Assembly: GCA_026390165.1 (NCBI GenBank) | Contig: JAPLGM010000016.1 | Coordinates: 62,001-126,000 of the forward strand | Length of the DNA stretch: 64,000 nt | Direction of reading: 5' to 3' | Source: Campylobacterales bacterium | GTDB lineage: Bacteria; Campylobacterota; Campylobacteria; Campylobacterales; Sulfurimonadaceae | In this document: in pieces, positions 6,913 through 18,557 of the stretch | Numbering within the stretch: position 1 is the stretch's first letter | Layout: each line of letters begins with the position of its first letter | Notes under the pieces: model-generated | What the model was told of the DNA's origin: nothing | The model's database searches: none | Seen by the model: the letters and a program-made list of their open reading frames with translations, nothing else | Made by a program: the position numbers and the translations under genes

Positions 6913-7467
6913 ATGTTAGAAGCGATTATTTTAAAACTTATCACGTCGTTGACGGGGTATTTGTTTTCTGCCACGATGGACAGTTTCAAAAGCATTGAGA
7001 TAGAGGGGGCTCCGAGTTGGTATGGTAAGAATCTCGACCATGATAATCTTTATGCCTACGGATATGCCCGTGGAGATATGGAGTCGGTGGAGAGTGCGCG
7101 GGAGAATTGTAAAACAGCGATGGTGTATCGTTTGAATGATCTCAATGAAATTATTATTTATGACAACTTTCGTAACATCAAAGAGCCCAAAGAGCAAGCA
7201 TTGATTAATGCCTATAAAAATGATACACAATTAAAAGTGTTCGTTAACAAAGCGATGCAGTTTGAAAAAATTGAACACTTTGAGATGGAAGAGAAAGGGC
7301 TTTTCACTAAAGCACGCCCTGCTCAGACATTCGCAGGGGGGATGATCCCCAAAACGGCTATCATTGCCTACCAAAAAGAGCGGTTGGAGAAGATCAAAAC
7401 CTCATTAAGTACCTTTCGATTTACCCAAGGGATGGATGAACTCGATAGTGAAATGGAAGGAAAATAG
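6913..7467 (+). CDS. Hypothetical LPP20-like protein
   Basis: A 184-residue protein with a hydrophobic N-terminus (MLEAIILKLITSLTGYLFSA) that could be a signal anchor. It then has GAPSWYGKN, LYAYGYARGDMESVESARENCKTAM, the same P-x-W ... G-x-A ... A-x-x-x-C/A pattern as the LPP20 proteins around it. The C-terminal half (residues 95-184) is charged and helical and not recognisable. It sits between the LPP20-DUF4384 gene and the transglutaminase-like gene, overlapping neither, in one apparent operon. Confidence 0.6.
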   Translation: MLEAIILKLITSLTGYLFSATMDSFKSIEIEGAPSWYGKNLDHDNLYAYGYARGDMESVESARENCKTAMVYRLNDLNEIIIYDNFRNIKEPKEQALINAYKNDTQLKVFVNKAMQFEKIEHFEMEEKGLFTKARPAQTFAGGMIPKTAIIAYQKERLEKIKTSLSTFRFTQGMDELDSEMEGK

Positions 7468-7468
7468 G

Positions 7469-9043
7469 ATGAAAACAACAACATTATTGATACTAGTTAC
7501 GCTGAATGTATTTGCGGATGATGGGTATGAAGCCTATCGACAAAGTATTGCCGAGGAGTATAACGCCTATTACCAAAAAGAGATGAAGGCGTATCAAGCT
7601 TTTATCCAAACAAGTGATGGTATTCCCAATAAAATCAACCCGTACCAAAAAATAAATATTGTACCACCTCGGCCTGTTATTACCAAAGTCGTAGCACCTC
7701 CAGTTGTGAAGCCAACAGTGCCACTACCTAGCAGCAAAGTGACTCCTCCTATCGTAAAAGTTGTTATTCCCAAGGTGGAGCCAATTGTCCCAGAAGGTAA
7801 AATACTTGAAAAGCCCCAAAATATGATTCCCAAAGGGACACCAAGCGGCTCTCAGATCGATACTGTCAAACTGGAAAAAATCGACGTATCCAAACTAATA
7901 GCACCTCCCCCACCGCTTATTTCACAAACACCATCTACGATAACGGTTCAAAGTATGCAGCTCTCATTTTTCGGTACCTCGATCCCCATCGATCAAAATG
8001 CAGTTGCCTTTACTAAAACATTGCAACCCTCCAAAGAGGTATCTGATCTTGCAGATGAGATTCATGCACACGATACGCTGTTAATTAATCGTCTAAAAGC
8101 CATTCGTAATGAATACTCGTTGAACGATTGGGATATGGTAGTATTCGCGCAAGCATTGATGAATACGATCTATTCGGCGAAGGATCAAAAATTAAAGACA
8201 CTTCATATCATCGACGTTTTACGCGGTTTGGGATATAAAACATTGTTAGCAGAGGGGACGGATAAAAAACTCTATTTCCTCGTCCCAACGAAACAACCCC
8301 TTTATTCCAAATCATTTTTCGAAAGAGAAGGGGGTAAATATTATCTTTTTGCCGTCGATGAGCACCCTAGAGCGGATGCAAAAGTATCGATTAGCTTTTA
8401 CAAAAGCGCAGATGATGGGCAAGGTTCACCATTGGATATGCGGATGCTCAAAGATCCACTCATCGGAGTTGACCCCCAAACGGTGAATCTCAAATGGGAT
8501 TTTGAAAACAAAAAATACACGATGAATGTTACCCTCAATAAAAATCTTACGGCATTGATGGATATGTACCCTCAAGTTGAGAATGATGCCTATTTGCAAT
8601 CGCGTTCAGGGGTTAAACTGGTGCGTGGGCTTGCCTCCAATTTACTAAACGAGATTCAAAAGAACCATTTTACGCAAGAACAATCCATAGCCTTTATCCT
8701 CCGTTTCGCCCAACAAGCGTTTACCTATAAAACCGATTTTGATGCGTATGGATACGAGCGACCAATGTTCGTTGAACAAACGATTTTATTGCCGTATTCC
8801 GATTGTGAAGACCGAGCGATTTTATTGTCACGATTGTATCAAGAGGCGTTAGGATTGGATACGGTTGGACTGCGTTATCCGGGGCATCTCGCACTTGGAG
8901 TATCCTATAGTGGAAAAGGGGATTATTACACGACGCAGAATAAAAACTACTACGTAACCGATGGAACTTATTTTTATGCGAATCCGGGAATGAGTCAGCC
9001 AAGCTTTAAAAATGTTGCAGCGAAATTCTTGGGAACGAAATAA
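7469..9043 (+). CDS. Secreted transglutaminase-like protein with proline-rich linker
   Basis: I place the start at the ATG at 7469 (signal peptide MKTTTLLILVTLNVFADD, AGGAAAATAGG upstream) rather than an upstream in-frame ATG at 7436 inside the previous gene, giving 524 residues. Residues ~60-170 are Pro/Val/Lys-rich and look like a periplasm-spanning linker. The C-terminal domain carries a transglutaminase-like Cys-His-Asp triad: C446 in YSDCEDRA, H473 in YPGHLALG and D498 in YVTDGTY. Such domains act as proteases or amide-forming enzymes; the substrate is unknown. It closes the forward trio and converges with the PA14 gene across a hairpin. Confidence 0.7.
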   Translation: MKTTTLLILVTLNVFADDGYEAYRQSIAEEYNAYYQKEMKAYQAFIQTSDGIPNKINPYQKINIVPPRPVITKVVAPPVVKPTVPLPSSKVTPPIVKVVIPKVEPIVPEGKILEKPQNMIPKGTPSGSQIDTVKLEKIDVSKLIAPPPPLISQTPSTITVQSMQLSFFGTSIPIDQNAVAFTKTLQPSKEVSDLADEIHAHDTLLINRLKAIRNEYSLNDWDMVVFAQALMNTIYSAKDQKLKTLHIIDVLRGLGYKTLLAEGTDKKLYFLVPTKQPLYSKSFFEREGGKYYLFAVDEHPRADAKVSISFYKSADDGQGSPLDMRMLKDPLIGVDPQTVNLKWDFENKKYTMNVTLNKNLTALMDMYPQVENDAYLQSRSGVKLVRGLASNLLNEIQKNHFTQEQSIAFILRFAQQAFTYKTDFDAYGYERPMFVEQTILLPYSDCEDRAILLSRLYQEALGLDTVGLRYPGHLALGVSYSGKGDYYTTQNKNYYVTDGTYFYANPGMSQPSFKNVAAKFLGTK

Positions 9044-9050
9044 GGCTATT

Positions 9051-9069
9051 CTCCCCGATTTGATCGGGG
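9051..9069. terminator. Hairpin between convergent genes
   Basis: An 8-bp perfect stem TCCCCGAT/ATCGGGGA with a three-base loop lies eight bases after the transglutaminase-like stop and 13 bases before the stop of the convergent PA14 gene. The T-run after it is weak on both strands (a T-rich stretch appears 17 bases later on the plus strand), so it may act in both directions or as an mRNA end-protecting stem. Confidence 0.5.
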
Positions 9070-9081
9070 ATTCTACCAAAG

Positions 9082-10455
9082 TTATTTTTTAAACTCTTCA
9101 AACTCTTCTTTTGTCTCATGTTTATGACTGTGAAATGACTCTGAAACGACGATCTCAGGACCTTCGACAAAACCCGTAAAATTATTCGTGAGCATATAGA
9201 GAAGTTTCGTTTGATAGCTTTCAGGTTTGCTGTAAATATGGCGTACTTGTAGTTTATCACTAAAGGTTCCATCCCCAAAAAGCCATTTCACTTTTTTGAT
9301 TTTGATGTCGAGACTTTTGTTGATATACGAAAAATCAACCGCCAAAGGGGCTTTACCCGAACTTTTTGACGTTACTATTTCAATATCTGGAAGAACTTGA
9401 GGTGCTACTTGGTGCGTGATTGGTGCTTTGTACTCCTGAATATGTCCTACTAACCCATTTCCCGTATATAGATACATTTGGGGAATGATCGTTTGTGTTG
9501 AGATTCCTGGACCGCTCCAATACAATCGAGCAGCAGTAAATCCTGTATTTTCATAATAATCCATCTGAATAGTGTGAAAACCAGCAGAAAGTTTTACCGT
9601 ATTATTATACTTAGTCTCTGGCTGAACTATCCATTTATCAATCAATAAAGCTCCATCAATATAAAGTTTTACACCATCATCCACTGATGTGTAAAATGTC
9701 CAGTCTCCAGTCGTTGGAATATTGACATAACCTGTCCATTTAGCTTGAAAATAATCATTATTGATTGGATCCGCTGGATTTCCTGTACCCCAATCAAAAT
9801 TTATAATGCTATCTGTTCTTGATAAATTTACAGTTCCTGAGATTGGGTAGTTTTTACAGTCTGCCGAATTAGCCTTGTTATAATATTGTCCCAATAACCC
9901 ATCACCTGTGAGGATAGTTGCATTTGAAACTGAAATCGGCACCATTGTCGTATACAGATACGTTTGTGGAATAATTGCTTGGGGTAGTGAAGCGTCATTT
10001 CTCCACATTAAACGAATATAGGCTCCTCCCGTATATTCTTTAAATTTAATTTCTATGGTATGAAAACCTTTCGTCAAAGTAACCGTAGAAGTGTCACGAA
10101 ATTCACTGGCTCCACCCGTCCAGCTTTCACTTTCATACAGTGAAGCACCATCTATCGTCAACTTCATATAATCATCATGTGCTAAAGAAAACGTATATCC
10201 GGCTGTTTCTGGAATATAAATGGATCCTGTCCATAGTGCACTAAAATTATCGCTATTAACCCCTATAGGCCCTCCAAAACCCCAGTCAACATCTATTGTT
10301 GTATCCGTTTTTGCTACAGCGATTGGAGCACTCCAAAAGGTATTATTGTAATACGTTGCTGATAGCCCATTTCCACTGCTCCATACTGTAACAGCAAACA
10401 TCATCACCACACCAAAAACGGCTATCAACCGCGACAATAGTTTAAAAGGTCTCAT
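9082..10455 (-). CDS. Secreted protein with two PA14 domains and a PKD domain
   Basis: This 457-residue exported protein has an N-terminal signal peptide (MRPFKLLSRLIAVFGVVMMF). Two PA14-type beta-barrel modules follow (~30-165 and ~185-335), each with WTGSIYIPETAGYTFSL or WTGYVNIPTTGDWTFYT, the D-D-Y/G turn, and a LYWSGP / LMWRND strand. A C-terminal PKD domain (~355-440) has KAPLAVDFSY and WLFGDGTFSD. PA14 modules commonly bind glycans, so a surface adhesin or glycan-binding role is inferred. No catalytic domain or C-terminal anchor is seen. AAGGAGG precedes the ATG. It heads toward the transglutaminase-like gene. Confidence 0.85.
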   Translation of the reverse strand: MRPFKLLSRLIAVFGVVMMFAVTVWSSGNGLSATYYNNTFWSAPIAVAKTDTTIDVDWGFGGPIGVNSDNFSALWTGSIYIPETAGYTFSLAHDDYMKLTIDGASLYESESWTGGASEFRDTSTVTLTKGFHTIEIKFKEYTGGAYIRLMWRNDASLPQAIIPQTYLYTTMVPISVSNATILTGDGLLGQYYNKANSADCKNYPISGTVNLSRTDSIINFDWGTGNPADPINNDYFQAKWTGYVNIPTTGDWTFYTSVDDGVKLYIDGALLIDKWIVQPETKYNNTVKLSAGFHTIQMDYYENTGFTAARLYWSGPGISTQTIIPQMYLYTGNGLVGHIQEYKAPITHQVAPQVLPDIEIVTSKSSGKAPLAVDFSYINKSLDIKIKKVKWLFGDGTFSDKLQVRHIYSKPESYQTKLLYMLTNNFTGFVEGPEIVVSESFHSHKHETKEEFEEFKK

Positions 10456-10476
10456 TTTATCCTCCTTGGGATTATC

Positions 10477-10575
10477 TTAATACACATCGCCATGTATGCC
10501 GATGTCAACTAGCACGATTTGTTCATCAACTATCTGCAAAATCAACATAGTCCCCTTTTTTGGTGTTATAAAACT
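10477..10575 (-). pseudogene. Remnant of a RelE/YafQ-type toxin C-terminus
   Basis: On the minus strand an open stretch just downstream of the small lipoprotein gene reads ITPKKGTMLILQIVDEQIV then LVDIGIHGDVY and a TAA. This resembles the end of RelE/YafQ/ParE-type toxins (the IGTHxEVY-like finish). The N-terminal two thirds are missing and no antitoxin is adjacent, so it is a scar of a lost toxin-antitoxin pair. Identification rests on a short match by eye. Confidence 0.45.
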
Positions 10576-10579
10576 TGAA

Positions 10580-11020
10580 TTACTCTACCACCATCCAAAC
10601 ATACAATTCATCCGTCGTCTTATCTTCCCAAAAGCTTTGGATTTTTGCAGTGACAACTTTTCCATTAGTCGTTTGAAAACTGTAGCTCTCAAGATTGGTT
10701 TGAGCACTTTGTGATGTGCCTACGGTTGATATTTTTTGGATGCTGCTTACTTCCACCCCCATTTGCCGTGCAATCTCATCGAGAGCACGACTGATAGCCA
10801 AGATTCGCTGAGCCGTTTTTCCATTGATATGGGGTTTGGAAATTCCCACTCCACCCATTTTTCCATCTTTGGATGTTTCATAAACCCATTTAGGTAATGA
10901 AGTGAGTGAAGACTCCGTATGAACAGCTATGGGAGTGGGAGGCGTAGTAGATGGAAGACACCCTGAGAGCAATAATGCACCCAAAAGTATGGGTACATAG
11001 GAGAGATATTTGACGTTCAT
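10580..11020 (-). CDS. LPP20-like lipoprotein
   Basis: A 146-residue lipoprotein. The lipobox LLSGC sits at the end of the signal peptide, then a Thr/Pro-rich stretch leads to the LPP20-type pattern LPKWVYETSKDGKMGGVGIS and the helix AISRALDEIARQMGVEVSS. A TTG two codons upstream, immediately after the stop of the preceding gene, is the alternative start. Expected in the outer membrane, facing the periplasm or the surface. It belongs to a minus-strand operon with the next two lipoprotein genes; the upstream stop is only six bases away. Confidence 0.75.
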   Translation of the reverse strand: MNVKYLSYVPILLGALLLSGCLPSTTPPTPIAVHTESSLTSLPKWVYETSKDGKMGGVGISKPHINGKTAQRILAISRALDEIARQMGVEVSSIQKISTVGTSQSAQTNLESYSFQTTNGKVVTAKIQSFWEDKTTDELYVWMVVE

Positions 11021-11026
11021 TGTCAA

Positions 11027-11629
11027 TTATTGCACGGGTTGTGCGTCGAGTTTTTCCAATGAAGAATCTAACTCATCTTGAGCTTTTTTGGCTTGGAATT
11101 GTTGCCATAGCGCTGCATCGTTTTGGTAACTGCTTTTAACCGCTTCTTTTACCGCGGCAATTGTTTTGGAAGGATCCGGCATGACGACCAATACCCAGAG
11201 AGTTCCTGTTTTCGAAATCCATTTTTTGCTTGCTTTTGAGCCGCTCAGATTTTGCTTTGATAATTGCTTGGAGACATTTGCAACGACTTTATCCACTACT
11301 GCTTGATCACCAACCCCTGTTTGTTGAGTGAAGTTTTTCAACATATTGGTTACATTGACTTGAATTTGACGCGCTAAATCGTCACGTCCGTTTCCGGTCG
11401 CTTCGGTAATGGCGAAACTTAGTCCAGCAGGTCCTACTTTGGCTGAACCGGCTGCACAAATAGCACCCTCCACAGAAGGATCTAAAACCCATGCAGGAGC
11501 ACCATCAAATTCTAAACTTATTTGTGATGGAGCTTGCGCTACTACAGACTCTGGTTGTGGAGTACATCCACTCATCATTAGCACGCTAGCAGCAGCTAGA
11601 CTCATTAGTGTCAATTTAGTAAGCATCAT
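11027..11629 (-). CDS. LPP20 family lipoprotein
   Basis: The start at 11629 (MMLTKLTLM, AAAAGGAAAA upstream) is preferred over an in-frame ATG 11 codons earlier, giving 200 residues. Lipobox LMMSGC. The mature part has FDGAPAWVLDPSVEGAICA and GSAKVGPAGLSFAITEATGNGRDDLARQI, the classic LPP20 layout, then a long helical segment ending in a charged tail. The family includes FlgP of the Campylobacter basal disk and Helicobacter LPP20. Middle gene of the lipoprotein operon. Confidence 0.85.
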   Translation of the reverse strand: MMLTKLTLMSLAAASVLMMSGCTPQPESVVAQAPSQISLEFDGAPAWVLDPSVEGAICAAGSAKVGPAGLSFAITEATGNGRDDLARQIQVNVTNMLKNFTQQTGVGDQAVVDKVVANVSKQLSKQNLSGSKASKKWISKTGTLWVLVVMPDPSKTIAAVKEAVKSSYQNDAALWQQFQAKKAQDELDSSLEKLDAQPVQ

Positions 11630-11701
11630 TTTTCCTTTTTTGATTAGTATCGTATGTGACATTGAGCTATATAGTAGCTTAATTTACTTTAGTAAACAAG
11701 A

Positions 11702-12706
11702 CTAAATAAATAGGTCAACAAACCCTTTTTGGTAATCATATTTAACATAATCACCGACTCTGATTTGATCGGCTACTTCTTTATCCTCAATAAGAATCCA
11801 TGAGGTATTGGGGGTAATTTGGTCACTGACTCTTCCCTCACCGATGAAGATCTCTTCATTGTTGACGCTGCCATTTAATGGGTTGACGGTGCTTCGCATA
11901 GCATAGATTTTTATTTTGAGATTATAAGCAGCACCCTGCTGTGATCCAATTTGAGCCAAAAAGATCGTTTTACCATCGTTATTACGCCGTTCTGTAATGT
12001 ATCCCTTAGGGCTGAATTGGTTCAACAGAGCAACTTTAAGACTATTTGGAGCATTTTCTGCCGCTTTTGAAATCAACCCTTCTTGATCGAAATGGGATTT
12101 ACAGTACCCCTCTTCACTATAAGAGTCTGAACCTGAGAGTGAAAAAGAGTCAATGACTTTTAGGCTAGGAAGCTCATAGAGTTTCATCGTACCGCTTACA
12201 CTTCCTTGATAAGAACAGCTTGCTGGTGATGTGTAACATTTCCCTTTTTTATCACACGAAGTTCTGGATTCAGTAAACTTGGATGAGACTACCCCGCTAC
12301 TAAGTGCTCCTGAAATAGCAATATCGGCAATTTCTGGCCCTTGATATGTTTTTCCCGTATCCCCTTTTAATTCAACAAGAGAGAGTTCTTGTTGAAGTTT
12401 TACCGCTGCACCGCGATCCACGAGTTCGATCAGTTTTGAATTCACTAGAATTGCTTCGGTACTATCTGCGACCGATTTCCCACCATCGACACGTCGAACG
12501 AGATCTGTTGATCCATTTTGTAACGCCATAACGACGACTTTTGGTTTTTTATGCTCCAATTCACTTGCCGTTGGCATAATATCCGCTTTAGCAATAGGAA
12601 CTGGTTTATACTCGGTCAACTTGACTTTTGGACCACACCCACTCATGCCCATAATGACTGCCCCGCTGACTAAATAGGGGAGAGCTTTTTGAAAATACGT
12701 TTTCAT
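11702..12706 (-). CDS. CsgG/FlgO-like lipoprotein
   Basis: A 334-residue lipoprotein with lipobox GMSGCGP. The body resembles CsgG/LpoB/FlgO outer-membrane assembly proteins: KPKVVVMALQNGS, a long helix leading to ILVNSKLIELVDRGAAVKL, and a GPEIADIAISGALSS segment matching the nucleotide-like fold of that group. Around residues 160-180 is an unusual cysteine-rich strand (TSCDKKGKCYTSPASCSY), and another cysteine follows in EEGYCKS, so disulfides are likely. C-terminal residues 280-334 end in KYDYQKGFVDLFI. It leads the minus-strand operon and shares a divergent palindromic promoter with the LPP20 gene at 12882. Confidence 0.7.
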   Translation of the reverse strand: MKTYFQKALPYLVSGAVIMGMSGCGPKVKLTEYKPVPIAKADIMPTASELEHKKPKVVVMALQNGSTDLVRRVDGGKSVADSTEAILVNSKLIELVDRGAAVKLQQELSLVELKGDTGKTYQGPEIADIAISGALSSGVVSSKFTESRTSCDKKGKCYTSPASCSYQGSVSGTMKLYELPSLKVIDSFSLSGSDSYSEEGYCKSHFDQEGLISKAAENAPNSLKVALLNQFSPKGYITERRNNDGKTIFLAQIGSQQGAAYNLKIKIYAMRSTVNPLNGSVNNEEIFIGEGRVSDQITPNTSWILIEDKEVADQIRVGDYVKYDYQKGFVDLFI

Positions 12707-12743: not shown

Positions 12744-12777
12744 TTAATAACATATTATAATATAACGATGTTATTAA
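12744..12777. promoter_or_regulatory. Divergent promoter with 9-bp inverted repeat
   Basis: TTAATAACA (12744-12752) and TGTTATTAA (12769-12777) form a perfect inverted repeat with a 16-base spacer. The spacer holds TATAAT on the plus strand (12756-12761) and on the minus strand (12759-12754). The site lies between the divergent CsgG-like and LPP20 genes and could be an operator controlling both arms of the envelope locus. Confidence 0.5.
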
Positions 12778-12881
12778 GATCAATAACGATTTTAGCCAAT
12801 CAAATCTTAAATATCAAAGTTAATATTTCCATTTTAATCGCGATTTGTGGTAAGGTTTCATCTACATTTAAAAGGAAAATC

Positions 12882-13853
12882 ATGAAACGTTTGCTTGTTT
12901 TAATAGGACTTGGAATAGGGTTGATCGCAGGGGAAAATGTTCCATCGTGGTATTTTAATCCCCCATCGGATAATGAGGTGAGTTGGTATGGTGTGGGTGA
13001 GGGGAACTCATTACGTCAAGCCAAAGACAGTGCATTGGCGGATATTGCATCAAAATTGAGCGTTACGATTAGTTCCAAGGTCTCTAAGGATGCAACGCAA
13101 ACGACCTCAGGGGCGTTCTCATCGTATCATCAAAACGTTAATGTGAATCAAGAGAGTGAAGTGAAAAAGATGTCGTTTAATAATTTTGAGGTCATCTCCA
13201 CAAGTCAAAATGATTCCAAAGCATTGGTACTGGTACAAGTGGATAAAGCGAAGTTTTTAAAAGATCAATTGCAAACCCTTACGGATATGGTTAAAGAGCT
13301 GGATACGCTTCAACTCTCCCCCAAAGGGAAATCAATTTTAGAGGAGTATCAAGAATTCAAAAGTTTGGCGCCTGATGTCGAAAAAGCGAAGACTATCATC
13401 TCTATTTTGACAACATTCGACGTCCCTTTTGAACGGACGAAAATGTCACAAGCTGTGAGTGATTATCGTGACTCACTGGATGCGATCCGTTCCCAAATAG
13501 AGTTTTATATCAGTGCCGACAACGATTCTCATTACAGTGCGGATGTTCTAAAAGAGGCATTAGCAGCCGAAAAAATCAAGATTGTGCAACAATTCAATCG
13601 TAATAATACTAATTTAGTGATCGTCGATTTGGATACGGTAGCAACCAGTAAACAACTTTTTAGTACCTATATGGTCAATACACGAACAACCGTTTCGTTG
13701 AAATCAAAAGAGGGGGCTATCCTCTCGACCTTTATTGTGGAGTCACGAGGGAACTCCTCGATTGATTATGCAACAGCGCTTAAAAATGCCAGCAATAATT
13801 TCAAACAACAAGTGAATGAGAAAGGGATTTTCACCTTTTTAGGGATCAATTAG
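12882..13853 (+). CDS. Secreted LPP20-domain protein
   Basis: Start chosen at ATG 12882, with AAAAGGAAAAT upstream and a signal peptide (MKRLLVLIGLGIGLIAG); the longer frame from 12768 overlaps the promoter palindrome and is rejected. The 323-residue product has VPSWYFNPPSDNEVSWYGVG and the helix LRQAKDSALADIASKLSVTI, an LPP20 domain at residues ~20-125. The rest is helical to residue ~205, then an alpha/beta part with LVIVDLDTVATS whose role is not known. No lipobox, so periplasmic. It diverges from the lipoprotein operon. Its stop codon lies inside a short repeat of the kdsB 3' end. Confidence 0.75.
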   Translation: MKRLLVLIGLGIGLIAGENVPSWYFNPPSDNEVSWYGVGEGNSLRQAKDSALADIASKLSVTISSKVSKDATQTTSGAFSSYHQNVNVNQESEVKKMSFNNFEVISTSQNDSKALVLVQVDKAKFLKDQLQTLTDMVKELDTLQLSPKGKSILEEYQEFKSLAPDVEKAKTIISILTTFDVPFERTKMSQAVSDYRDSLDAIRSQIEFYISADNDSHYSADVLKEALAAEKIKIVQQFNRNNTNLVIVDLDTVATSKQLFSTYMVNTRTTVSLKSKEGAILSTFIVESRGNSSIDYATALKNASNNFKQQVNEKGIFTFLGIN

Positions 13854-13875
13854 ATCCCGAAAATCTTTTTTCCCG
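13850..13875 (+). repeat. Short copy of kdsB 3'-end sequence, left border of AT-rich cassette
   Basis: This segment (TTAGATCCCGAAAATCTTTT and onward) matches 16508-16534, the last codons of kdsB on the minus strand, with one substitution and a small length change in the T-run. The two copies bracket a two-gene AT-rich block. A 3'-end duplication of this type is often left by site-specific insertion, though no integrase is present. Confidence 0.5.
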
Positions 13876-13878
13876 AAA

Positions 13879-16038
13879 CTACAAATCGACAATATATCCT
13901 TCGAAATTTTCATCAATAGTAACTTCAAAATTTTCATAAAGTTCGAGATGGACTCGTTGTGAAAGCTCTTTTTCTTTTGCGTCTTTAGCTTCTTGTGTTC
14001 CTATTTTTTCTAAAATGCTTTGTTTGAGAGAATCACTTATTTCATGGACATCTATATCAAAATTATTTTCAGAATTATCAACATCTAATTGTCTAATTGA
14101 GATAAATTTTTTCTTATTCAAAATCAAAACTCTGTTTTTTACCTGACCGTAAAATATGCGAAAAACGGGGATTCGATAATGATCTATGATATATCGCCCT
14201 TCAAAAGATGAAAATGCTTTTAGCTCATCGCTTGGGTCTCTCCATGCACCTTCAAAGCTATTATTATTCATGATAAATTTAAAAGAGCCAAAGGCAATAA
14301 TAAAAGCATCATTAAGATCATTTACTTTTTTAACTGCATTTGAAAACTCTTTTTCTTCGAGAGTTTCACATTTAGGTACAACTAAATCAAGGATTTTTCG
14401 ATTTTCTCCCTCTGTAATATCACGAGCAAATTGAGAACCGAACATATCAATACCCATTACTAAATCACTGTTAAATGAATCCTTTGCTAAAAGGGTATTT
14501 ATTCCAAATGTTTGATCATTTTTGTCATCTATTTCTTGATATTGTTTAGTGTAATTCTGGACTATTTTTTTAAGACCCGATGATTTTCTGTAAGACTCAA
14601 AAAAACTATCTTTTAGCTTTTGAACTCGTTCTGGTTTGATCTTGGCATTGGTAACGTGTGATACTAAACCCTTTTCGCATTCGTTTTTAATATTTTGTAG
14701 AAAATTTGATAATTTTTCTTTATCAGCTTTGATTTCAAGAATAGCTAAGATATTGTTCTGAGTGAAAATTTTGTCCAATTCATTTTCTAATTTTTGAATA
14801 TAGAATTTTAAGTTAGCTATGTATCTTTCATCTTTATTGGATAATGAGATATTTGGTACGTTATCAGAATAAGAGAGAAGATGAAGAAGTAAATAGAGGT
14901 CATATTGTCTGTAATAATATGAACTTGAGCTGTGCCCTTCATGAAAATCAAATTTAGGATAATAGCCACGATCTTTTAAAGAGAGTATGAATTCATCTAT
15001 GCTTTCAGGTAGTATTGAATGACCCGCCCAAGAAGCGTCGGCATCTTCAGGTTGTTTAAATGTCCATAAAAAAATTATCCAGTCGTATTTTTGTCGTTTG
15101 ACTAAATAAGCTCCGATTCCATGTACTAATTCTTTTAAGTTTGAAAATAAAAATTGGTCATGAGCTTTTTTGATAATTTCTTTGGCTTCTTCGTCTTTAG
15201 ACTCTTTTTCTAAAACGATTTTTTTGATGTGGTCAAATTCGGTAAGCCATTGATCCAATGCCTCTCTTGTATTTAAATACAGAAATTGTTCATCCAATTT
15301 TGATATGTTATTAAAATCGATTTGTTCGTCAAAGTCATTGTAATTGACAAAATCATAAAGATCGGAAGAATGGCCATAAAATCCTATGCCACTATGGAAC
15401 CATTCGATTAAATCTTTAAAAAAATCAATATCATTATTATCTATAGCAAAACGGATATACTCAAAAACTATTTTGTCGTATAACGGTAAAAAATCAAGGT
15501 TGAATTGTTGATTTTTTCTGATCCAATTGAATACGTGTGATGTATACCAGTGAAAACCTAATGAATCGCGATATATGCTTTTTTTATTCAAAGAATATTC
15601 AAATATTTCTCTATGGTATTGAAAAAAGATATTTAAAAATGACTCATAATTTATGAAATCTTTTTTATTTTCTTTACTCGGAGTCAGAGTCTCTAATAAA
15701 TCATCCATGTTTAATGCTATTTGTAGCCATAGTGATTTGCTCTCTTTGTCTATTGCACCAATGTAAGTGGTTTTATAAAGTTTCATAAGTTCTGTTAATG
15801 CTATTGAGTAATTATTATAATCCCAAGAAAATGAGTTGTTTTCAAGATTTTTTGAAATCATTAAGTCTTCAAAATGTTCTTTCTCATCTATGCAAAATAT
15901 ATCACTTATATGCATTGCTACTTTTGTTAATTGTTGAGTTAACAGTTCGTCATTGTCTTTTTGAATCTCTAATTTAAAAACTTTATTGAGAGATTTAAAA
16001 TAACTTATCAATAGTTCTTGTTTATTTTTTGATGACAT
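13879..16038 (-). CDS. Large hypothetical protein, AT-rich two-gene cassette
   Basis: I do not recognise this 719-residue protein. It appears soluble and largely helical, rich in Lys, Glu, Asn, Ile and Phe, with long amphipathic helices and no clear Walker, nuclease or protease motif. Notable stretches are WAGHSILPESIDEFILSLK near residue 340 and HYRIPVFRIFYGQVKNR near residue 630. Base composition is visibly more AT-rich than kdsB next door, suggesting acquisition. Its start overlaps the end of the upstream membrane-protein gene by 17 bases, so the two are surely co-translated. A defence or surface-sensing pair is possible but not shown. Confidence 0.75.
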   Translation of the reverse strand: MSSKNKQELLISYFKSLNKVFKLEIQKDNDELLTQQLTKVAMHISDIFCIDEKEHFEDLMISKNLENNSFSWDYNNYSIALTELMKLYKTTYIGAIDKESKSLWLQIALNMDDLLETLTPSKENKKDFINYESFLNIFFQYHREIFEYSLNKKSIYRDSLGFHWYTSHVFNWIRKNQQFNLDFLPLYDKIVFEYIRFAIDNNDIDFFKDLIEWFHSGIGFYGHSSDLYDFVNYNDFDEQIDFNNISKLDEQFLYLNTREALDQWLTEFDHIKKIVLEKESKDEEAKEIIKKAHDQFLFSNLKELVHGIGAYLVKRQKYDWIIFLWTFKQPEDADASWAGHSILPESIDEFILSLKDRGYYPKFDFHEGHSSSSYYYRQYDLYLLLHLLSYSDNVPNISLSNKDERYIANLKFYIQKLENELDKIFTQNNILAILEIKADKEKLSNFLQNIKNECEKGLVSHVTNAKIKPERVQKLKDSFFESYRKSSGLKKIVQNYTKQYQEIDDKNDQTFGINTLLAKDSFNSDLVMGIDMFGSQFARDITEGENRKILDLVVPKCETLEEKEFSNAVKKVNDLNDAFIIAFGSFKFIMNNNSFEGAWRDPSDELKAFSSFEGRYIIDHYRIPVFRIFYGQVKNRVLILNKKKFISIRQLDVDNSENNFDIDVHEISDSLKQSILEKIGTQEAKDAKEKELSQRVHLELYENFEVTIDENFEGYIVDL

Positions 16039-16498
16039 CAGAGACTTCCTGTTCTAAGATGTCAAAAATGTTTTGTGGTATTGTGTATCTGTGCAATGCT
16101 TTTGTAAAATGGAATACTTGAATAAGGATAAAAATGAAATGAATAAATGTGATGAGTATAAATGTTAAAAAAATATTATTTTCTTTCAACTGTACAAAAA
16201 GAGATATGAACAAAATATTTAAAAATAAGCCTATGCTCAGATGAATTGCGAGTGAAATAATATTTGTTTTCGCTTCAAAATCAGGAATCAAATGTTCTGG
16301 TACAACGGCTTTTGTTTCTCTAATTTCTTTTTTACTTAAGGGGACTAAAAAGCCCAATACAACTCCATAAAATGCAGCTATTCCAACAAAAAAATTAATA
16401 TCAACTTGGTAGTGTTTATTGCTCAAATATGGGTATGTGTATATAAAAATAAAGACACTGATAAACGTGAAGAAATATGTTAATTTATCTATTTTCAT
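16022..16498 (-). CDS. Hypothetical four-TM membrane protein
   Basis: A 158-residue integral membrane protein with about four transmembrane helices (residues ~6-25, 33-54, 82-103, 108-130). A basic-acidic loop sits between the second and third (SKKEIRETKAVVPEHLIPD), and the tail is cytoplasmic. No family recognised. It is the first gene of the two-gene AT-rich cassette and overlaps the 719-residue gene by 17 bases. A small membrane protein paired with a big soluble one is a common layout for abortive-infection modules, but this is inference. Confidence 0.7.
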   Translation of the reverse strand: MKIDKLTYFFTFISVFIFIYTYPYLSNKHYQVDINFFVGIAAFYGVVLGFLVPLSKKEIRETKAVVPEHLIPDFEAKTNIISLAIHLSIGLFLNILFISLFVQLKENNIFLTFILITFIHFIFILIQVFHFTKALHRYTIPQNIFDILEQEVSDVIKK

Positions 16499-16507
16499 TT
16501 TATCGTA

Positions 16508-16534
16508 TTAGACCCCGAAAATCTTTTTCGCCCG
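16508..16534 (+). repeat. Right border repeat at kdsB 3' end
   Basis: The end of the kdsB coding sequence, duplicated at 13850-13875. It encodes the KKIFGV-stop end of KdsB on the minus strand; the left copy would still encode KKIFGI-stop. This supports insertion of the intervening two genes at the kdsB terminus. Confidence 0.5.
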
Positions 16535-17227
16535 CTCCAAATCTTCTACCGTATCGATTCCGAATCCTGAACTCGCAACTTTGACCATTGAAATCTTTTT
16601 GCCGTGATAGAGGGCGCGAAGCTGTTCGAGTTTTTCGATATCTTCGAGCGGTGCTTCACCGAGGGCGCAAAAATCGTGGAGCGATTTTTTGGTAAATCCG
16701 TAAATTCCGATATGTCCGAAATACGATGCTTCCCCACTACGGTCAAACGGGATCGGTGAACGGGAGAAATAGATCGCATTATGCTCTGCGTCGGTAATGA
16801 CCTTTACGAGGTTCGGATCTTGCGCCGATTCGGTATTGATCGCGTTGTAACAGCTCCCCATGATAAATGGTGCGTTTTGCGCTTTGAGGGCATTGAGACG
16901 CTCGATCAGGAGTTCAAGCACTTCCGTTTCGATAAACGGCTCATCGGCTTGAACGTTGATGATAAGTTCATCGTCGGGTACATCGATGATCTGAGCGCAT
17001 TCGTTAATACGGTCGGTTCCGCTTTTGTGGGTGGTGGAGGTGAGGCGTGCTTCGACGCCGTACGCGGCGCAGATGTCGAGAATTTTTTCATCGTCACATG
17101 CGACTACGACGCGGTCGATGCTTTCGACCCGTTTGGCGGTACGGATCACCATCGGCAGACCGCCGATATCGGCTAAAACTTTTTCGGGGAAGCGGGTGGA
17201 GGCGAGACGGGCAGGGATGATAATCAT
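16508..17227 (-). CDS. kdsB: 3-deoxy-manno-octulosonate cytidylyltransferase
   Basis: KdsB activates Kdo with CTP to make CMP-Kdo for lipopolysaccharide core synthesis. The 239-residue protein has the usual length and signature: IIPARLASTRFPEK at the N-terminus, VVVACDDEKI, TSTTHKSGTDRINE, VNVQADEPFI and YFSRSPIPFDR. It is more GC-rich than the cassette that follows its 3' end. A TATAAT-like -10 lies upstream on the minus strand (17265-17260). No LPS neighbours are in the window. Confidence 0.97.
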   Translation of the reverse strand: MIIIPARLASTRFPEKVLADIGGLPMVIRTAKRVESIDRVVVACDDEKILDICAAYGVEARLTSTTHKSGTDRINECAQIIDVPDDELIINVQADEPFIETEVLELLIERLNALKAQNAPFIMGSCYNAINTESAQDPNLVKVITDAEHNAIYFSRSPIPFDRSGEASYFGHIGIYGFTKKSLHDFCALGEAPLEDIEKLEQLRALYHGKKISMVKVASSGFGIDTVEDLERAKKIFGV

Positions 17228-17427: not shown

Positions 17428-17868
17428 TTGTTAACCTCACAACTCCAAAAAATCAAGAATACTACAAATACTTTTAACAAGCCTCATTTAAGCTTTGAAG
17501 CACAATTAGAAAAACTCAAAAATCGTGGACTTTGTGTACATAATGAGGCTTTTGCGATAAAGAAACTTTCCCACATTAATTATTATAGACTACGTGCTTA
17601 TTTTTGGCTTTTTCAACATCCCAAAGATAGTCCTAAAAAGAGTCTGTTTCTTGATAATATTGAATTTCGAAGTATTATTCGAGTGTATGAGTTTGATGCT
17701 AAACTTCGCAGACTTATTTTTGGGGCTATTGAAACCATTGAGGTGTATGTTCGTACACAAATAGCCTTTTGTCATGCCAAAGAGTATGAAGCCTTTGGGT
17801 ATCTCGATAAAGAAAATTTCTCTTGCGACGAGCTTATTTTTGATAGTGTCTTTAAAGGGGAGTTATAA
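17428..17868 (+). pseudogene. Abi_2-type abortive infection protein, truncated
   Basis: The 146-residue frame (TTG start, GAGGGGG upstream) has the N-terminal half of the AbiD/AbiF (Abi_2, HEPN clan) family: FEAQLEKLKNRGL, LSHINYYRLRAYFWLF, VYEFDAKLRRLIFGAIETIE and VYVRTQIAFCHA. Full-length members are near 300 residues and end with an R-x4-6-H catalytic motif, which is missing. A stop comes right after GEL, so the gene has lost its C-terminal half. A TATACT -10 lies at 17367-17372. A second HEPN-like gene follows 86 bases later. Confidence 0.7.
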
Positions 17869-17954: not shown

Positions 17955-18557
17955 GTGAAAGAAAGCTTAAACTTAAAATATATATCGGAAAACAGACTTT
18001 CTAGTTATAACGATTTTGAGGAGTACCGACAAAATCTTCTGATTTCCAAAAATGCCTATATTCCTCTTTCGATTCTGGAAATTGCCCTTCGCAACGCTTT
18101 AAATACGTATCTTACCATTAAAATAGGGCGAGATTGGCATACGGATAATACATTCTTAACTCCTATGGCACAAAAAAAGATTAAAGAGGTCAATGACACA
18201 CTTAAAGGGCGTAAAGAAACAGATTCAAAAGAGAAGGTTATTGCCGAGTTAAATTTTGGTTTTTGGGTTAGTCTTTTTCAAAAACCTTATCAAAATTATT
18301 TTAGAACCAAAGATCTTCGACAAATTTTTCCGAATATGCCTTCAAAAAAAGAGATATTTTTAGATCGGGAAGAAATTTATAAGAAACTGGATCATATTCG
18401 TCGTTTTAGAAATAGAGTATTTCATTATGAAAAAGTAATCAATAAAGACCATTATAATGATGTTGTTAAAGATATAAATTTTGTTCTTGCGATATTTGAT
18501 GATGCTTTAGCAGAATTCGCGACAACATTAAATAAATCTGATCAGAGTGAGGTTTAG
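17955..18557 (+). CDS. Abi-like HEPN-domain protein
   Basis: A 200-residue protein starting at GTG. It shows the Abi-like layout: SSYNDFEEYRQNLLISKNAY, IPLSILEIALRNALNTYLTI, LNFGFWVSLFQ, and the HEPN RNase motif R-N-R-V-F-H-Y-E (R-x4-H) near residue 155. Such proteins cleave RNA in phage defence. It looks intact, unlike the Abi gene before it. A 29-codon open stretch (17869-17958) overlaps its start, and I do not call it. The methyltransferase gene begins three bases after its stop. Confidence 0.7.
   Translation: MKESLNLKYISENRLSSYNDFEEYRQNLLISKNAYIPLSILEIALRNALNTYLTIKIGRDWHTDNTFLTPMAQKKIKEVNDTLKGRKETDSKEKVIAELNFGFWVSLFQKPYQNYFRTKDLRQIFPNMPSKKEIFLDREEIYKKLDHIRRFRNRVFHYEKVINKDHYNDVVKDINFVLAIFDDALAEFATTLNKSDQSEV

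Follow-up and report, generated by a model that had tools for sequence, protein, structure and literature searches.

How does a two-gene cassette come to lie against the 3' end of kdsB, bordered on its far side by a second copy of that same gene end, with no integrase gene nearby? The question arises from a window of 64,000 nucleotides (the whole stretch of DNA that was analysed, to which all coordinates refer unless another locus is named), which is part of a Sulfuricurvum-genus genome, here G000, and of its 143.7-kb contig C2. For comparison, 36 further kdsB neighbourhoods were fetched, several of the comparison genomes being fragmented. We consider it likely that host recombination anchored on kdsB, and not an integrase, brought the cassette in beside this gene. 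The features at the centre of the argument are as follows.

12768..13853 (+): LPP20-domain gene, resident neighbour behind the insertion (profile match; same order behind kdsB in G008)
13849..13870 (-): putative stub of a former kdsB 3' end, far repeat copy (AAAAAGATTTTCGGGATCTAA plus one base; repeat comparison and G008 junction)
13879..16038 (-): gene for a 719-aa protein (ORF; no membrane segments)
16022..16498 (-): gene for a 158-aa membrane protein (ORF and hydropathy)
16507..16528 (-): kdsB 3' end, near repeat copy (AAAAAGATTTTCGGGGTCTAA plus one base; repeat comparison)
16508..17227 (-): kdsB, foreign relative to its flanking genes and the proposed recombination anchor (profile match, nucleotide identity, trees)

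The cassette and its repeated border

The cassette block (13871-16507) has a G+C content of 0.289, compared with 0.398 for the window, and is the lowest in G+C among all 2637-nt stretches of the window. Its two ORFs, 13879-16038(-) and 16022-16498(-), overlap by 17 nt, and searches of Pfam, PADLOC, NCBIfam and PHROGs gave no meaningful E-value for either product. An earlier note, made from the sequence alone, had described two AT-rich genes with a 17-base overlap and of no known family, and the ORFs, base composition and profile searches all agree with it. The 158-aa protein has three hydrophobic stretches over the hydropathy threshold and likely one more, near the N terminus, that falls under it. 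The 719-aa protein is predicted to be mostly helical with a mixed C-terminal part, in low-confidence AlphaFold models (pLDDT 38 for the full protein and for its C-terminal 220 aa, two sequences each). A likeness of this C-terminal part to HK97-type capsid proteins was considered, but Pfam, PHROGs and PDB sequence searches did not bear it out. Two viral contig scans returned no relative, and there was none among phage records.

The same note had observed that the sequence around the kdsB stop recurs past the far end of the block, and the copies at 13849-13870 and 16507-16528 are indeed identical at 21 of 22 bases. The repeated 21-mer occurs at these two places only, both in the window and in the whole genome; its chance expectation in the window, allowing up to 3 mismatches, is 0.01. 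The near copy comprises the final 6 codons and stop of kdsB, while the far copy overlaps the stop of the convergent LPP20-type gene (12768-13853(+)) and has a degenerate continuation that may reach about 13888.

Empty sites and displaced gene ends

The empty site that the earlier note proposed to look for among kdsB neighbourhoods of relatives was found in G008, where the kdsB end (GGGATCTAATTGATCCC) abuts the LPP20 gene directly, at exactly the repeat sequence. Because this kdsB/LPP20 junction consists of the same bases, the far copy in G000 (13849-13870) can be identified as a remnant of a former kdsB end, with one or two bases only of the 21-nt stub telling the former gene apart from today's kdsB. 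Both a direct repeat of the kdsB end at the two cassette ends and an empty site are present.

When the last 120 nt of kdsB were compared with the 41 genomes of the genus, three clear partial extra kdsB ends were found (93 nt in G002, 41 nt in G034 and 21 nt in G000), all of which finish at the kdsB stop. G034 is a second independent case, in which kdsB is followed by two small cargo genes, the stub and then the f11 gene; the corresponding empty sites, with kdsB joined directly to the following gene, are seen in G038, G035, G019 and G039. The 93-nt stub of G002 (locus L056, contig C42, 207-299) stands after a TPR-like gene near the contig end and is followed by an antitoxin-like gene. In G017 the cassette precedes VapBC genes, and the stub there is not recognisable (perhaps about 7 nt at most).

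Ancestry of kdsB and its flanks

The genes around the cassette have different nearest relatives. The flank genes of G000 are nearest to those of G034 (79% nucleotide identity for the methyltransferase gene and 85% for trpC), its kdsB is nearest to those of G002, G017, G012 and G022 (about 90%), and its LPP20 block is nearest to that of G008 (83%). The kdsB tree is discordant with the flank tree, and a grouping of G000 with G034 in the kdsB tree was rejected (AU p 0.006). Relative to its flank relative G034, the entire kdsB of G000, and not its tail alone, is by these comparisons of foreign ancestry.

Between G000 and G017, dS is 0.54 for kdsB compared with 0.14 for the 158-aa gene; the cassette and kdsB were therefore not simply acquired together from a single common donor.

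The LPP20/lipoprotein block behind the cassette (7436-12706) is itself patchy, its marker gene being found in 4 of 41 genomes, and as far as seen it adjoins kdsB in G000 and G008 only.

Probable recombination anchored on kdsB

On the reading that we favour, incoming DNA from another Sulfuricurvum lineage would pair with the resident kdsB, and the incoming kdsB would replace the resident copy, carrying the cassette in behind it. At the other end, which has no homology, an illegitimate or very-short-homology join would form inside the tail of the resident gene, and at least 21 bases of the displaced kdsB would stay behind as a stub ahead of the LPP20 gene. In this way kdsB would serve as an anchor, with cargo exchanged on both of its sides. 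We infer that the route is DNA uptake by transformation followed by homology-facilitated illegitimate recombination; ComEC and DprA genes are present in G000. A foreign anchor gene and a variable far join that keeps a remnant of the recipient gene, two marks of such recombination, are both found here. The repeat, the empty site, the foreign kdsB, the variable stub lengths and the lack of a nearby tyrosine recombinase are all parts of this model that were observed directly or in sequence comparisons.

One observation runs against kdsB-anchored recombination in this simple form. In G000 and G017 alike, the cassette begins no more than about 6 bp from the kdsB stop and finishes with its own stop, though the DNA behind it differs, and two random joins at one boundary would not be expected except where a short arm of kdsB tail moved together with the cassette. 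These identical ends, together with a dS of the 158-aa gene below that of kdsB, make it likely that there was more than one event.

Precise cassette ends in two genomes and a direct repeat at the 3' end of a gene are also what would be left by a site-specific integrative element in the kdsB 3' end, with the 22-bp repeat as its attachment core, its integrase lost or acting from elsewhere, and kdsB replaced separately. Also in favour of such an element, the G000 genome has twelve matches to the tyrosine-recombinase profile (PF00589), all of them on other contigs. The earlier note had stated that no integrase is present, and the 143.7-kb contig carries no PF00589 match, which counts against such an element. 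The stubs differ in length (21, 41 and 93 nt), so there is no fixed attachment core; the G017 cassette has no recognisable core at all, and the whole of kdsB is foreign. The variable stubs and the wholly foreign kdsB fit kdsB-anchored recombination with an illegitimate or short-homology far join, and we regard an integrative element as unlikely. The earlier note's proposal of integration into the kdsB 3' end is accordingly upheld as to a foreign cassette inserted at that place, with an empty site in G008, and is not upheld as to site-specific integration.

Somewhat more doubtful still is that the cassette, lying between a kdsB body and a kdsB tail, moves among kdsB loci by double homologous recombination, the tail stub acting as a portable short arm that erodes with each move. 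This would account for identical cassette ends before different DNA (the LPP20 block in G000, VapBC in G017) and for a cassette start that diverges less than kdsB, but 21 nt is short for RecA and any G017 stub would be shorter again. A shared transcription terminator in place of a gene remnant, a doubt already raised in the earlier note, is a very improbable account of the repeat and was rejected, since the far copy and the LPP20 gene end do form a hairpin (-11.5 kcal/mol, z -1.8) but the kdsB copy does not fold comparably as a terminator, the repeat runs colinear with the codons and stop of kdsB, and the same bases are the true kdsB end at the empty site of G008.

A defence hotspot on both sides of kdsB

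We found that the cargo beside kdsB varies greatly among related genomes. In 20 genomes the methyltransferase gene and kdsB stand 53-59 bp apart; the distance is 131 bp in G034 and 0.9-2.2 kb in nine genomes, G000 included (seven others gave no value). Across genomes the upstream cargo includes SoFic, HepT with a nucleotidyltransferase, AbiLi, PDC-S02 and a cytosine methyltransferase, and the cargo behind kdsB is equally varied, VapBC included. Both flanks of kdsB are a defence and toxin-antitoxin hotspot in related bacteria; constant core genes surround varied defence genes, the arrangement that defines a core defence hotspot. A literature search on kdsB as a defence hotspot returned nothing relevant. 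In G000 the upstream side holds two such genes.

17428..17868 (+): AbiD/Abi_2 gene, probably truncated; upstream-hotspot cargo (profile match)
17955..18557 (+): PD-T4-5-like/HepT-like-2 gene with a GTG start (profile match)

The first of these covers its profile partially and has no nucleotide match in the other fetched genomes; it is probably a truncated abortive-infection gene. The second directly adjoins the methyltransferase gene and shares 90% nucleotide identity with a gene in the same place in G002.

The gene pair and its possible role

Of the 41 genomes of the genus, two (G000 and G017) have the pair, directly behind kdsB in both, and it is present in 2 of 397 genomes of a phylum sample. 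A fixed partnership with kdsB, which the earlier note had named as the outcome that would speak against its reading, was rejected on the genus count and on a distant homologue that sits elsewhere.

Between G000 and G017, the 158-aa gene is 96% identical in both nucleotide and amino acid sequence (dN 0.016, dS 0.138; dN/dS 0.12), and the 719-aa gene is 89% identical in nucleotide and 87% in amino acid sequence (dN 0.064, dS 0.404; dN/dS 0.16). Both genes are under purifying selection. Residues 241-480 of the 719-aa protein are its fastest-changing part (dN 0.12-0.14, versus 0.02-0.05 elsewhere).

Distant homologues of the 719-aa protein were found in G081, of the same order (645 aa; 27% identity, E 1e-30), and on a Pseudanabaena plasmid (1021 aa; about 22% identity, E 2e-17). 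In both, a hydrophobic N-terminal part is fused to a soluble part. Homology is clear for the soluble parts (E 7e-32 for G081 and 2e-17 for the plasmid protein), and both N-terminal parts align collinearly with the 158-aa protein, direct pairwise similarity being weak (E 0.013). Since distant homologues fuse a membrane part to a soluble part, the two proteins probably form one membrane-anchored complex or machine. The fusions, together with purifying selection, support the pair as a functional unit, in keeping with the earlier note's view that the two proteins belong together. On the Pseudanabaena plasmid (L003, 2620-6071), a PIN-domain gene and an 802-aa gene of unknown family stand just before the fused homologue.

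Judged from its neighbourhood, the most likely role of the pair is anti-phage or toxin-type defence, to which we give roughly an even chance. A membrane-linked anti-phage role is plausible from the neighbourhood and the patchy distribution; a trigger would be recognised by the large soluble part, with the membrane part either causing membrane damage or reporting it. The earlier suggestion of a defence or sensing module holds to the extent that the kdsB hotspot makes a defence context plausible. It finds no counterpart among the PADLOC-DB models, by which a known anti-phage system would be recognised and which match neither protein. A role in membrane stress, transport or signalling, with no part in phage defence, falls a little short of an even chance: no defence family matches the pair and the neighbours of the G081 homologue are housekeeping genes, but the kdsB hotspot is rich in defence and toxin-antitoxin genes and the distribution is patchy. 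With comparable reserve, we suggest that the pair could be an undescribed membrane-linked anti-phage system, consisting of a membrane part and a large soluble part that are split here and fused elsewhere, and spreading by kdsB-anchored recombination.

Relation to known systems and significance

Homology-facilitated illegitimate recombination has been proposed for the T6SS effector-immunity arrays of Vibrio cholerae (PMC5361080), which share with the kdsB locus a homologous anchor at one end, a non-homologous join at the other, a 3' remnant of the displaced gene and the lack of an integrase. At kdsB, in contrast, a gene for sugar-nucleotide synthesis acts as the anchor and is kept intact, with a two-gene cassette of unknown function as cargo. 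Hotspots of HGT that lack mobile elements and are maintained by recombination at flanking core genes have also been described (PMC5635113); a discordant core gene beside fast-changing accessory genes, with no recombinase nearby, is common to these and to kdsB, whereas at kdsB single events are readable from leftover gene stubs. In the core defence hotspots (cDHS) of Pseudomonas aeruginosa, fixed core genes likewise border varied defence genes (PMC10250203), but the kdsB loci are much smaller, lie on both sides of one gene and extend across species of one genus.

These findings indicate that an ordinary housekeeping gene can have defence-type genes exchanged next to it with no mobile-element enzyme involved, and that such exchanges can be read from genomes through the stub that a displaced gene end leaves. 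They also draw attention to a protein pair that is so far uncharacterised, and to a locus that may yield more defence genes not yet known.
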